Shown: in pieces, positions 7,281 to 16,077 of the stretch
Layout: every line of letters starts with the position of its first letter
Position numbering within the stretch: position 1 is the first letter of the stretch
Origin: a virus
Virus record (IMG/VR): IMGVR_UViG_3300009684_000081
Coordinates: 1 to 36,296 of that record
Direction: 5' to 3' (one strand)
DNA: 36,296 bases
Program-made: the position numbers and the translations under genes
The notes under the pieces: model-generated
What the model was told of the DNA's origin: nothing
Seen by the model: only the letters and a program-made list of their open reading frames with translations
Database searches by the model: none

Positions 7281-9602
7281 TTAAACAATAGCATAGTTTT
7301 CAAACATTGTCTTAACTAAATCATTATCATAAACATTAGGTGGACTAACATTATTACCGCCACCACCACCATTTTGAGCAACATTTGTTGTTGGTGCATT
7401 GATAGTTGTGTTACCGCCACCAGGTTTCATTGCAGCCATTCTTTGGTCTGACATTGATGTTGATGCGGATGCTAATGCTTTACCACTTGATGGGGGAGAA
7501 GCTGATGTTAAAGTTGTTGTTGCGCCAGATGACGGATTGGAGTTAAACATTGCCAATTCAATATTTCTTCTTTTTTCCAATCCTTTATTAACTTCACCAC
7601 TAGCTTTATTATATTTTGGTATTGCTTCTGCAATCTCACTAATGGTTCTTTTCCCACCATCTGTTACTTTGTCTAATATTCCAGGTCCTAAATTATAAGC
7701 AAAAGAAGTTAATGAATCTATCTGTGATGAATTAAAACCATAATTATGTTTTTTTCCATATGCAACTACTTTATCTCTTGTTTCTTTTACTGTAGCTCTA
7801 AGCCTTCTATCAGCTTCTTGTTCGTCAATCACCTCGTCTTTACCATTAGCTTTTGTTCCATATCCAATACTATATTGTTTATGGTCCCAAAAAGCTTTAG
7901 CGCTAAAACCCTCTAATTTTTTTATATTTGATATTAATTCTTCACTTGGTTCATCACCACTTTGACTGTCTTTTGTTGGTGACATTGATGGCGATGTTCC
8001 GCCAGCTGTTGATCCAGAACCGCCAGTATATGGAGTCGGTTTATTAGTAGCAGGAGCACCGCCACCAGCTGCAGGAGCACCGCCACCAGCTGCAGGAGCA
8101 CCGCCACCAGCTGCAGGAGCACCGCCACCAGCTGCAGGAGCACCACTTGCAGCAGTTTTAGCAACACCAGATGCTTTTTGTGCTTGAGCTAAATCTTTAT
8201 CGGACATAGCAGCTAAACCAAGCAGTCCACTTGTTAAATCTTTAAATCCTTGGCCTAATTTAGATAAGTTTTCACCATCAATGTCTTTAAATAATTTTAA
8301 TTGTTTAGCTAATTTAGCTAAAGGACCTTTTTCTGGATCATCTTCACCAAAAAAGAATTCTTTAATTCCTGTTATAACTTTAATACCAAAAAGAGCAGCT
8401 AGTCCAGCGGTTAAAGCAACCAATGCACCGCCAACCTTTAAAAGATTTGTTCCATTTAATTCACTAAGAGGATTTAAACCACCAGCTAAATTTATAAGAA
8501 GTTCTTTTATTCCATCTGAACCACCTAATAATTGTACAGCAGTTCCTGATAAAGCTAAAGCAGCTAAAAATGCTCCTAAACCAACTCCAACGGCGCCAAT
8601 ACCTAAAGCTGCACTGCCTGCAAGACCAGTTGCACCAAATAAAGCTCCGGCACCTAACAACGATCCTAGTGCAATCAAACTATTTGGTTCTAATGCATTT
8701 AAACCTTCAGCAAGATTAACTAATAAATCTTTAACTCCAGCTGCACCACCAAATAGTTGAACACCAGCACCACCCAAAGCTAGGCCTGCTATGAATCCAC
8801 CAAAGCCAAGGCCAACAGCACCCATGCCAATGGCACCATTTAGGCCAACACCAAATAAAGCACCAGCACCAAGTAGTGTGCCAAGAAATACTAAACTACT
8901 AACATCAAAAGCATTTAATCCTTCAGCAAGATTAACTAATAAATCTTTAATGCCACTTGCACCACCTAATGCATTTACAGCAGCACCACCCAAAGCTAGA
9001 CCCGTTATGAATCCACCAATACCTAATCCTATTGCGGCCAACCCAACACCTTTTCCTAAACCACTCATTGCTTTATCTAAAGCTCCTAAACCAATATCCT
9101 TTAATGAGGCGGCTCCGCCTTTACCAGCAGCAGTTGGTTTAGTTGATGGTGTGGTATTTTGTTTTTTAAATTTAGATTTATATTCTTTGTCACGAGCAGA
9201 TTCTTTTTTAAAAAACTTATCACCGCTGGTTGCAGGAGATTCTTTAACAGATTTAACCAATATAGCGGTATTCTGTTTCATTATATTAATATCAAATGCT
9301 ATTCTTGATAAATTTAAAGATTCTTTTGCAACAATTCTCATATTAACAAACATTTCATCAAACATAGCACTATCAATTTGTGATGGTGAATCAGAAATTT
9401 TAGAATTTTTTACATTAGTTGGAGCTCTATATGCTTTAAATAATGCCGGTAAAGCAGCAGCTAAAAATCCTTGTTGATTAAATACATTTCTAGGATCTAT
9501 TTTTTCTAAAGCAGCTTTTCCAAAAGTTGAAGCTACACCTCCGCCTTGAGATTTCTCTGCTTTATAAATATCTGCTAGTCGTGTTGATTTGTTTTGTGCC
9601 AT
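7281..9602 (-). CDS. Tape-measure-like tail protein with C-terminal lysozyme (GH24) domain
   Basis: The 773-residue protein has a soluble N-terminus, then about four hydrophobic Gly/Ala/Leu-rich repeats (about 175-430), each with a glycine-zipper stretch and a copy of 'GIKDLLVNLAEGLN'. A 7-residue GAPAAGG linker repeat follows (about 490-520). A lysozyme domain (about 553-700) starts KLEGFSAKAFWDHKQYSIGYGT, aligning Glu564 with T4 lysozyme Glu11, Asp573 with Asp20 and Ser578 with Thr26, the last a conservative change. The rest is Gly/Ser/Asn-rich. Size, hydrophobic repeats and position right after a frameshifted chaperone pair indicate the tail-length tape measure, with the lysozyme puncturing peptidoglycan during entry. 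A non-tape structural lysozyme is the alternative. The ATG directly abuts the stop of the chaperone extension. Confidence 0.75.
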   Translation of the reverse strand: MAQNKSTRLADIYKAEKSQGGGVASTFGKAALEKIDPRNVFNQQGFLAAALPALFKAYRAPTNVKNSKISDSPSQIDSAMFDEMFVNMRIVAKESLNLSRIAFDINIMKQNTAILVKSVKESPATSGDKFFKKESARDKEYKSKFKKQNTTPSTKPTAAGKGGAASLKDIGLGALDKAMSGLGKGVGLAAIGLGIGGFITGLALGGAAVNALGGASGIKDLLVNLAEGLNAFDVSSLVFLGTLLGAGALFGVGLNGAIGMGAVGLGFGGFIAGLALGGAGVQLFGGAAGVKDLLVNLAEGLNALEPNSLIALGSLLGAGALFGATGLAGSAALGIGAVGVGLGAFLAALALSGTAVQLLGGSDGIKELLINLAGGLNPLSELNGTNLLKVGGALVALTAGLAALFGIKVITGIKEFFFGEDDPEKGPLAKLAKQLKLFKDIDGENLSKLGQGFKDLTSGLLGLAAMSDKDLAQAQKASGVAKTAASGAPAAGGGAPAAGGGAPAAGGGAPAAGGGAPATNKPTPYTGGSGSTAGGTSPSMSPTKDSQSGDEPSEELISNIKKLEGFSAKAFWDHKQYSIGYGTKANGKDEVIDEQEADRRLRATVKETRDKVVAYGKKHNYGFNSSQIDSLTSFAYNLGPGILDKVTDGGKRTISEIAEAIPKYNKASGEVNKGLEKRRNIELAMFNSNPSSGATTTLTSASPPSSGKALASASTSMSDQRMAAMKPGGGNTTINAPTTNVAQNGGGGGNNVSPPNVYDNDLVKTMFENYAIV
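8051..8146 (-). repeat. Four tandem 21-bp repeats encoding GAPAAGG linker
   Basis: The 21-base unit starts at 8051, 8072, 8093 and 8114 and a partial copy follows to 8146. It is in frame within the tape-measure-like gene, between the hydrophobic repeats and the lysozyme domain, and should vary in copy number by slippage. Confidence 0.95.
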
Positions 9603-9796
9603 TTACTTTCTTTTTTGTTGGTTTTTTAATTTTTCATTTTCTGAATCAAGATATTCAATTAACATATCAATATACAGCTGTCTTTCCCAAGGTATCATTT
9701 CTTCCAATTCACTCAAACTATACTTATGGTGTTGCATTAAAGAGAAGTTTGTTTGATAATAATTACCTAAATTTTCATGAGAAAGACCTATCCGAA
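9603..9796 (-). CDS. Frameshift extension of gp26 (gp51/tail-chaperone T-like domain)
   Basis: If ribosomes slip back one base at the end of gene 26, the -1 frame stays open for 63 more codons (9794 to 9606) and stops at 9605-9603, one base before the ATG of the tape-measure-like gene. The added sequence (starting RIGLSHENLGNYYQTNFSLM) contains QHHKYSLSELEEMIPWERQLYIDML and ends in a basic LKNQQKRK tail. That pattern resembles gp51-labelled C-terminal pieces in T4-like aquatic phages and, in style, the T extension of lambda GT. The only internal ATG (9737) would give 44 residues, has no clear ribosome-binding site and would cut the conserved region. The fused product would be 306 residues. 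Confidence 0.78.
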
Positions 9797-10522
9797 AAAA
9801 TTTTGAATACCCTCAATAACCATTTCCTCTTTATAATTACATTTTGGACAATTAAAATCAAACTTCTTAATTATTTTTGGAGCAGTTGCAAAGAAATTTT
9901 GTATTTTGGCCAAATCTGTTTGTTGCATACTTTCAATAAAATCTACCAATTCTTTTTTGGGAGTATCTTTTGCATAGTAAATATTATCTTTATCGTAAAT
10001 ATAATCAATACAATCAATAATAACATTAAACATATCAACTTCAGTTTTAATATTAAGGTTGTTAACAATATTAAAATTTGGATATTTCATAACAACACCC
10101 ATATTTCCAGTTAATTCAATTTTATCCGAATGTTGTGGATTTATTGTTGGTTCAACTTCTAAAAGATTAACATCAATTTGAACTAAACCACCGCAAATCT
10201 TATCTTCATTCTTTTCATCTTTTACTGTATTATTACAAACATATTTTAAATTTACAATTTCTCCTACTGACCTTGCTCGTAATTGCATAAACAAATGTTC
10301 AAGGTCAAAAGTTGGTAATATATTAATATCAACATTGGAATCCAAAATACAATTAGCTAATACTTGTCTAATTGCATTAATGACATCCTTTGCATCATCT
10401 GACTGTGAAGCCATTAAGAACAATTTTTGTTCTTTTACTAAAAACGGTCTAAATCTAACAGTTTTTCCTGTTGAAATTAGTTTTGTTTCATAAATCGGCA
10501 CATCAATTTTAGGTAAAGCCAT
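9788..10522 (-). CDS. 26: gp26-like baseplate hub protein / tail assembly chaperone
   Basis: The 244-residue protein belongs to the T4 gp26 'T4 baseplate' family as I know it from cyanophages. It has an N-terminal strand pair (PIYETKLISTGKTVRFRPF), LVKEQKLFLMAS (about 28-39), a region FDLEHLFMQLRARSVGEIV, and a C-terminal NCPKCNY zinc-knuckle-like motif (Cys225, Cys228) before the end EGIQNFFG. In T4, gp26 acts in hub assembly. Here the gene ends in a slippery sequence and lies directly before the tape-measure-like gene, so the protein may act as the short form of a G/GT-type chaperone pair. GAGGAT precedes the ATG. Confidence 0.82.
   Translation of the reverse strand: MALPKIDVPIYETKLISTGKTVRFRPFLVKEQKLFLMASQSDDAKDVINAIRQVLANCILDSNVDINILPTFDLEHLFMQLRARSVGEIVNLKYVCNNTVKDEKNEDKICGGLVQIDVNLLEVEPTINPQHSDKIELTGNMGVVMKYPNFNIVNNLNIKTEVDMFNVIIDCIDYIYDKDNIYYAKDTPKKELVDFIESMQQTDLAKIQNFFATAPKIIKKFDFNCPKCNYKEEMVIEGIQNFFG
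9794..9803 (-). other. Putative programmed -1 frameshift site (two overlapping slippery heptamers)
   Basis: Read on the minus strand in the gp26 frame, the end of the gene is CAA AAT TTT TTC GGA TAG. Both A-AAT-TTT (9803-9797) and T-TTT-TTC (9800-9794) fit the X-XXY-YYZ slippery pattern in phase, three to six bases before the stop codon TAG (9790-9788). Confidence 0.8.
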
Positions 10523-14446: not shown

Positions 14447-15775
14447 ATGATTGAAATATCGCAATCAACACAATTTAAGATACGCCAGCTAGAAATTGTA
14501 TCCAAAGTAGGAACAATTGATGTTAGTGGAATATTTGATGAATTGAACATTTATGATAGCATAATGATGCCGTGTATGTCTGGCAATATTATTATTCGTG
14601 ATGCTCTTGGATTGTCTAGCCGGTTGTATTTTGATGGTAGCGAATACCTCAATATTAATATTGGAAAAGAAAATGAAGAAGATGTCACCTCTTTCAAAAA
14701 AACATTTAGAATATACCGACAATCGGATAGAAAGAATATAAATCAAACATCTGAAATGTATGTTCTTCATTTTGTTTCTGAAGAATTAATTTATTCAAAG
14801 CAACAAAAAATTATACAGACATATACTGGAAACCACCATGAAGCTGCTGTATCAATACTAAAAGATTATTTGAAGGTTAAACAGGTGGTTGGTAAAATTG
14901 GAATTATTGAACCATCTAAAGGTATTCATACTTATAATTTTCCAAATATGTCGCCATTTGAAGCATTAAATTGGTTGGCTCAACGAGCTATTAGTAATGA
15001 AGGATTATCCAATTTTATATTCTTTCAAAATAAATTAGGATATAATTTTGTTTCATTATCTAAACTAATAACTCAAAATGTTTTATTTGATGTTAATTTT
15101 AATCCTAAAAATTTAACTCCATCTTTGGCACAAGAACTTATTGGTGCTCGTGATGTTAGGATTGGTGAACAACATAATTTGATTGATAATATTCAAAATG
15201 GAGTTTATGCTGGAACATTTATTGGTTTTGATCCATTGACAAGAAAAATTACAACAAATAAAATTGATTTTCAAAATATATATAAAAAAAGTAAACACGC
15301 CAATAAAAATCCAAATATTACAGCAGCTAGAAATAGAGATGGGTTGGATGGTAGTCAAATGTATAATTCTAAAATTAGTCTTTATCCGTTTCAATCAACA
15401 CGCATAGATAGTTCATATACAAAATCAAATGATAATATTACAGCAACAATTATTGATGATACGCATAATTATATTTTTCAAAGACGAGCTATATTTAAAA
15501 ATTTAATGCAAAGAAAGGTTCAAATGGTGTTACCTGGAAATTTTACAATAACTTCAGGCCTCAACTTAAATTTAATGATGCCATCTAGAGCTATATCCGA
15601 TGATAATTCAAATCCATATGATATATCTTTATCTGGAAAATATTTAATTATTGGTGCACGACACATAATTAAGTATGATAAACACGAAACGGTTGTTGAA
15701 GTTGCTACAGATTCTTCAGATAGACCACTTATTGATTCAAGTAACCAAGATACAATTCAGGCTGAGTTAGAATAA
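14447..15775 (+). CDS. 27: gp27 baseplate hub protein
   Basis: The 442-residue protein resembles the gp27 hub family. The N-terminal tube-like domain has QLEIVSKVGTIDVSGIFDELNIYDSIMMPCMSGNIIIRDALGLSSRL (about 14-60). A middle region NMSPFEALNWLAQRAISNEG (about 167-186) corresponds to the gpD/VgrG-like hub domain, and the C-terminal region contains GKYLIIGARHIIKYDKHETVVEV, typical of late hub control proteins. T4 gp27 (391 aa) forms a trimeric torus that holds gp5 and matches the six-fold tube. The gp5 OB-fold gene starts in an ATG overlapping its stop, in keeping with the gp27-gp5 complex. Confidence 0.85.
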   Translation: MIEISQSTQFKIRQLEIVSKVGTIDVSGIFDELNIYDSIMMPCMSGNIIIRDALGLSSRLYFDGSEYLNINIGKENEEDVTSFKKTFRIYRQSDRKNINQTSEMYVLHFVSEELIYSKQQKIIQTYTGNHHEAAVSILKDYLKVKQVVGKIGIIEPSKGIHTYNFPNMSPFEALNWLAQRAISNEGLSNFIFFQNKLGYNFVSLSKLITQNVLFDVNFNPKNLTPSLAQELIGARDVRIGEQHNLIDNIQNGVYAGTFIGFDPLTRKITTNKIDFQNIYKKSKHANKNPNITAARNRDGLDGSQMYNSKISLYPFQSTRIDSSYTKSNDNITATIIDDTHNYIFQRRAIFKNLMQRKVQMVLPGNFTITSGLNLNLMMPSRAISDDNSNPYDISLSGKYLIIGARHIIKYDKHETVVEVATDSSDRPLIDSSNQDTIQAELE

Positions 15776-16077
15776 TGGTTAATAAAAACTTTGCTGGTAA
15801 AAATGGATTCATTTGGTGGGTCGGTGTGATTGAAAACCGAGTTGATCCAATGGCGGTTGGTAGATGTCAAGTAAGGATTTTTGGTTGGCACCCGCAAGAA
15901 AAGAATTTATTACCAACAGATAAATTACCATGGGCTCAAGCAATGTATTCACTTAATAGCTCAAGGTCAATTACAACCGGACCTAGAGTTGGAGATTGGA
16001 TCGTTGGATTTTTTATGGATGGTGAATTAGGACAAATGCCCGTGATGATGGGTGTATTAGCTGGATTAAAGGTTTAA
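15775..16077 (+). CDS. 5: gp5-type OB-fold hub domain as a stand-alone protein
   Basis: The 100-residue protein corresponds to the N-terminal OB-fold of T4 gp5/VgrG: FIWWVGVIENRVDPMAVGRCQVRIFGWHP (12-40), LPWAQAMYSL and GPRVGDWIVGFFMDGELGQMPVMMGVLAG (about 66-97). It has no lysozyme domain and no beta-helix, both of which T4 gp5 (575 aa) carries on the same chain. Those parts are encoded elsewhere here: the beta-helix by the gene at 16873 and a lysozyme domain on the tape-measure-like protein. It should sit on the gp27 ring and support the spike. Confidence 0.88.
   Translation: MVNKNFAGKNGFIWWVGVIENRVDPMAVGRCQVRIFGWHPQEKNLLPTDKLPWAQAMYSLNSSRSITTGPRVGDWIVGFFMDGELGQMPVMMGVLAGLKV

Follow-up and report, generated by a model that had tools for sequence, protein, structure and literature searches.

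The window, which is the whole stretch of DNA analysed here, is an IMG/VR virus record of 36,296 bases, for which no near DNA relative was found among the GenBank phages. The neighbouring genes in the window are T4-like, being gp32, gp2, gp4, gp48, gp53, the gp5 OB domain, and a tail-tube-like protein. The features of the locus, all on the minus strand, are as follows.

10522-9788, minus strand: gene 26 homologue, putative short chaperone form (TAC-N), 244 aa (PF12322 / phrog_150)
9814-9810, minus strand: GAGGG, resembling a Shine-Dalgarno sequence, 9 nt upstream of the heptamer; possible stimulator of the dnaX kind
9812-9603, minus strand: -1 frame, encoding a gp51-like C-terminal extension; the predicted shift would add 63 codons, up to a TAA (phrog_634; phrog_150; pN/pS 0.25)
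CAA 9805-9803, AAT 9802-9800, TTT 9799-9797, TTC 9796-9794, GGA 9793-9791, TAG 9790-9788, minus strand: terminal codons of gene 26
9803-9797, minus strand: A AAT TTT, second heptamer overlapping T TTT TTC; in phase, not conserved
9800-9794, minus strand: T TTT TTC slippery heptamer, conserved candidate shift site (T TTT TTY in 57/61 lineages; synonymous codon entropy at its minimum for the gene)
9737-9735, minus strand: earliest ATG of the -1 frame, right before the core (MQHHKYSL), without a Shine-Dalgarno sequence
9602-7281, minus strand: putative tape-measure gene by position and composition, 773 aa; phage lysozyme domain at the C-terminus of the product (PF00959, E=7.9e-16)

The ATG of gene 26 is preceded by the Shine-Dalgarno sequence GAGGAT, and its product, which has a Zn-ribbon-like CPKC close to the C-terminus, matches Pfam T4_baseplate (PF12322) with E=4e-60 and also phrog_150. 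The 3' end of the gene reads CAA AAT TTT TTC GGA TAG. Both of the heptamers that an earlier note had seen here, A AAT TTT and T TTT TTC, are in phase and were correctly placed, on the minus strand; the latter, of the X XXY YYZ type, falls where the 0 and -1 frames overlap (9812-9788). The -1 frame is limited upstream by a TGA at 9815-9813, which confines any shift to the final eight codons of gene 26, a stretch that contains both heptamers. It then remains open, as had been described, from 9812 to 9603, and its TAA (9605-9603) directly abuts the ATG (9602) of the 773-codon ORF of the putative tape measure. Simultaneous slippage at T TTT TTC would produce a protein which on recomputation is 306 aa, the length given in the earlier note, with a predicted junction of ...QNFF joined to RIGLSH... 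The ends of all ORFs of the window were scanned as well, but most overlaps are just ordinary next genes and say little about the locus.

In the -1 frame there is a match to phrog_634 ('baseplate hub assembly catalyst', gp51) with E=1.2e-25, and another to positions 228-276 of phrog_150, the 0-frame match to which stops at 232. The extension is predicted to be helical (structure model, pLDDT 77). There are no ATG, GTG, or TTG start codons in the -1 frame of the window between the heptamer and ATG 9737. It had been claimed that this ATG truncates the HHKYSLSELEEM core, which is not the case: ATG 9737 sits right before the core (MQHHKYSL...), and a start at this codon would keep the core QHHKYSLSELEEM but drop a separate conserved stretch, GLSHENLGNYYQTNFSL. 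The cyanophages S-CAM1 and S-RSM4 have the same layout as the window, and in nearly all relatives the extension directly precedes a long ORF.

A first scan with gp26 of the window as the query returned 80 loci, 79 of which were readable beyond the stop, and all 79 have TTT TTC, one codon, and then the stop. The set was widened by scans with gp26 from a cyanophage, a vibriophage, Ackermannviridae, a pelagiphage, and a Stenotrophomonas phage, and the loci were collapsed to 61 gp26 lineages, less than 90% identical. An in-phase T TTT TTY is kept in 57 of these 61, the four exceptions being Ackermannviridae, and in each of the 55 lineages usable for this the end of the heptamer is separated from the 0-frame stop by 0 or 1 codon. 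One amino acid is shared by at least 90% of the lineages in 25 columns, and of these columns the two that hold the Phe codons of the heptamer vary least at synonymous sites; the first is TTT in 57/57 and the second TTC in 57 and TTT in 4. Both TTT and TTC occur in four further conserved Phe columns, and their gene-wide ratio is 495:177. The base preceding the TTT of the heptamer is T in 57/57, though the residue encoded there varies between Asn, Ser, Asp, and Ala. The lineages share ancestry, and the conservation is therefore given without a formal probability.

Of the pair of heptamers in the earlier note, T TTT TTC thus holds up, while A AAT TTT does not. The latter was ruled out as the main shift site, since AAT is often AGT, GAT, GCT, or TCT in relatives, which destroys the heptamer, and on sequence comparison it is probably incidental.

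From the 0-frame stop to ATG 9737 there are 17 codons, which have a pN/pS of 0.25 in 26 lineages of the window's clade (bootstrap 95% 0.11-0.47), the same constraint as that on the core in this clade (0.26), and in 20 cyanophage lineages the same interval has a pN/pS of about 0.12. In the other frames over this interval pN/pS is at least 1.5 (1.6-1.7 in the window's clade) and stops are frequent. By this measure, the 17 codons ahead of ATG 9737 evolve as protein in the -1 frame only.

T4 itself has this extension in a different arrangement. Genes 26 and 51 of T4 are separate and divergently transcribed, and T4 gene 26 has TTC TTT and no slippery site. Its gp26 and gp51 share a homologous N domain, which in gp51 (249 aa) is the gp26 domain (PF12322) at residues 1-201, followed in frame by the same extension as in the window. 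T4 gp51 aligns straight across the frameshift junction with a profile built from the virtual fusions, by which it is a natural in-frame version of the gp26-gp51 fusion. The gp51 of cyanophages has been reported to be without the N-terminal ~200 residues that other gp51 proteins have (Sullivan et al. 2010, PMC3037559), a lack for which the frameshift would account. Conservation of the heptamer, a coding -1 frame that has no start of its own, and homology to T4 gp26 and gp51 are all steps established by comparison between phages.

The conserved heptamer, the selection confined to the -1 frame, the absence of a ribosome-binding site at the internal ATG, and the in-frame counterpart in T4 gp51 together make it very likely that a 306-residue gp26-gp51 fusion is produced by -1 frameshifting at T TTT TTC. 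A separate gp51 of 44 residues, begun at ATG 9737 and coupled to the translation of gene 26 without any fusion, is in comparison improbable. It is true that an ATG is present at this place in most relatives, and that depositors have drawn gp51 as a small gene of its own in Melnitz, HTVC008M, and S-RSM4. However, this ATG has no Shine-Dalgarno sequence, with a mean anti-SD energy of +1.2 kcal/mol versus -6.7 at the start of gene 26, and it is not present throughout, being replaced by GTG (Val) in lineage L059 and by Ile in L069 and L125, and missing in L087. The 17 codons upstream of it are as constrained at the protein level as the core, and the frozen heptamer would be left unexplained.

Slippage of RNA polymerase on the T run, which would join the frames without any slippage of the ribosome, is less probable still. 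This is a known alternative route for joining frames (review PMC5009743), and there is a run of six T before the stop, longer in a few relatives. Yet it is the exact in-phase T TTT TTY that has been kept, and not a longer run, a pattern that fits re-pairing of tandem tRNAs. Six T is also short for slippage by a bacterial RNA polymerase. T runs are common in AT-rich sequence, but that an open -1 frame and a heptamer arose here by accident in an AT-rich genome is hardly credible, given that 57 of 61 lineages share the layout, that purifying selection acts on the -1 frame upstream of ATG 9737 (pN/pS well below 1), and that the extension matches phrog_634 and T4 gp51.

As a whole, the locus is best explained by a frameshift into a gp51-type extension giving a short/long chaperone pair, which on the comparative evidence can be held with high confidence. 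The 244-aa product of gene 26 would be the short tail-assembly chaperone. On reaching U UUU UUC, a small share of the ribosomes would slip back one base, possibly stimulated by the upstream GAGGG, and would go on to make the 306-aa long form, which has the helical gp51-type extension at its C-terminus. If lambda gpG/gpGT are a guide, the short copies, many in number, may coat the tape measure encoded by the next gene, and a few long copies may recruit the tail tube protein. What we infer beyond the comparisons is slippage itself, its rate, stimulation by GAGGG, and the chaperone role. The -1 frameshift from gp26 into a gp51-like extension before the tape-measure gene, as put forward in the earlier note, is therefore supported by comparative evidence, with T4 gp51 as the in-frame counterpart. 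Findings that would speak against it were looked for, and the outcome was mostly in its favour: the slippery site is kept in relatives, in-place fusion of both frames was seen in none of the surveyed set, and the partial exceptions are the Ackermannviridae with no canonical heptamer, an extra ATG at the junction in some phages, and the two genes of T4.

With regard to stimulatory elements, the spacing between GAGGG and the heptamer resembles that of the internal Shine-Dalgarno of dnaX. Across all lineages the mean anti-SD energy at the GAGGG site is -6.5 versus a background of -0.96 kcal/mol. On synonymous resampling, 0/300 sequences were as strong in the cyanophage clade, which indicates selection for the element, versus 67/300 in the window's clade, where the amino acids explain it. 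No downstream RNA structure (hairpin or pseudoknot) was found in the window (z = +0.3).

The 773-aa ORF is putatively the tape measure by position and composition; its N-terminal part has no match to known tape measures, and in HTVC008M the ORF downstream of gp51 is annotated 'putative tail tape measure'. For this protein we infer a short/long pair of tail-assembly chaperones, from the location of the extension directly ahead of its gene and from homology, gene 26 and the extension of the window matching PF12322, phrog_150, and phrog_634 and their profile matching T4 gp26 and gp51. Sequence searches gave no convincing relatives of solved structure. In a Foldseek search with the AlphaFold model of gp26 (pLDDT 86.7), 3fgx (probability 0.80), 2ob9 (0.72), and 3klu (0.38) were among the few higher-probability PDB matches, all with E of about 1. 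All three are structures of tail assembly chaperones, 2ob9 being that of HK97 and 3klu being YqbN, and the matches are only suggestive of a TAC-like fold in the modelled protein. The gp5-like ORF at 15775-16077 in the window is a 100-aa OB domain only, the lysozyme domain lying on the putative tape measure at 7281-9602, and the tail lysozyme therefore seems to be carried on the tape measure instead of gp5.

The likeness to lambda, a short/long chaperone scheme ahead of the tape-measure gene, is drawn by analogy, and the shift site of lambda is G GGA AAG, unlike T TTT TTC in the window. The gpG and gpGT of lambda are tape-measure-binding proteins that bring in the tail tube protein (review PMC5009743), a scheme from which the same 2016 review excepted T4, and T4 gp26 and gp51 have been listed as hub assembly chaperones (PMC3004832). 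The TAC locus of Pseudomonas phage Adele and the Vandenendeviridae likewise has a conserved poly-T -1 site and an open -1 frame before the tape-measure gene (PMC12846349), but the motif there is GTTTTT in another phage family, and the likeness is one of layout.

A frameshifted chaperone is not new in kind, and the window is a further case of a trick known in many phages. In the abstract of a study by Vladimirov and colleagues, frameshifting is said to be conserved in several T4-like groups, with T4's own group using separate genes 26 and 51. The earlier note was unsure whether this had been reported for T4-like phages; as cited in PMC10885494 and PMC12846349, Vladimirov, Gautam & Davidson (Virology 2022) had already proposed it from genome comparison, identifying the gp26/gp51 chaperone genes in these phages. 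The poly-T -1 signals in T4-like TAC-N genes are credited to them in PMC12846349, and PMC10885494 describes the alternative in T4, in which one gene is short and the other is a long fusion. No experimental demonstration of the frameshift in T4-like phages was found in the literature searched. Added here are the evidence from synonymous sites and frame-specific selection, the dismissal of A AAT TTT as the shift site, and an account of the exceptions. The frozen heptamer and the selection on the -1 frame before any start codon are strong comparative evidence that uncultured aquatic T4-like phages share the short/long chaperone scheme of lambda. None of the annotated GenBank records examined has a joined CDS, gp51 being either started at an internal codon or left out (as in S-CAM1), and among these records the gp26-gp51 gene is thus widely mis-annotated.

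In the Ackermannviridae (L175-L192, L206, L211), gp26 ends ATT TTC ATY TAA and the gp51-like -1 frame is intact, without a canonical heptamer. The limestoneviruses have a TAATG start at the junction, and the Salmonella kutterviruses have neither a junction ATG nor the heptamer. There is an extra in-frame ATG at the junction in the P-SSM2-type cyanophages, schizotequatroviruses, and the Stenotrophomonas phage. In the schizotequatroviruses (L090/L173/L174) and the Stenotrophomonas phage (L086/L204) T TTT TTC is found together with an in-frame ATG overlapping the gene 26 stop, and frameshifting and coupled initiation could therefore both make the extension. It is a tentative suggestion, and a somewhat doubtful one, that the extension is expressed by several routes: mostly by frameshifting, by frameshifting plus a junction start in the schizotequatroviruses, the Stenotrophomonas phage, and the P-SSM2-type cyanophages, and through a non-canonical ATTTTCATYTAA arrangement in the Ackermannviridae. 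If true, these would form a graded series between the frameshift and the two-gene split of T4. Some relatives, from pelagiphages and Methylophilales phages (L082 3411-3740; L083 3403-3735; L201), have an extra ORF of ~110 aa between the extension and the tape-measure gene, which bears an EF-hand-like HPADTNGDG motif.
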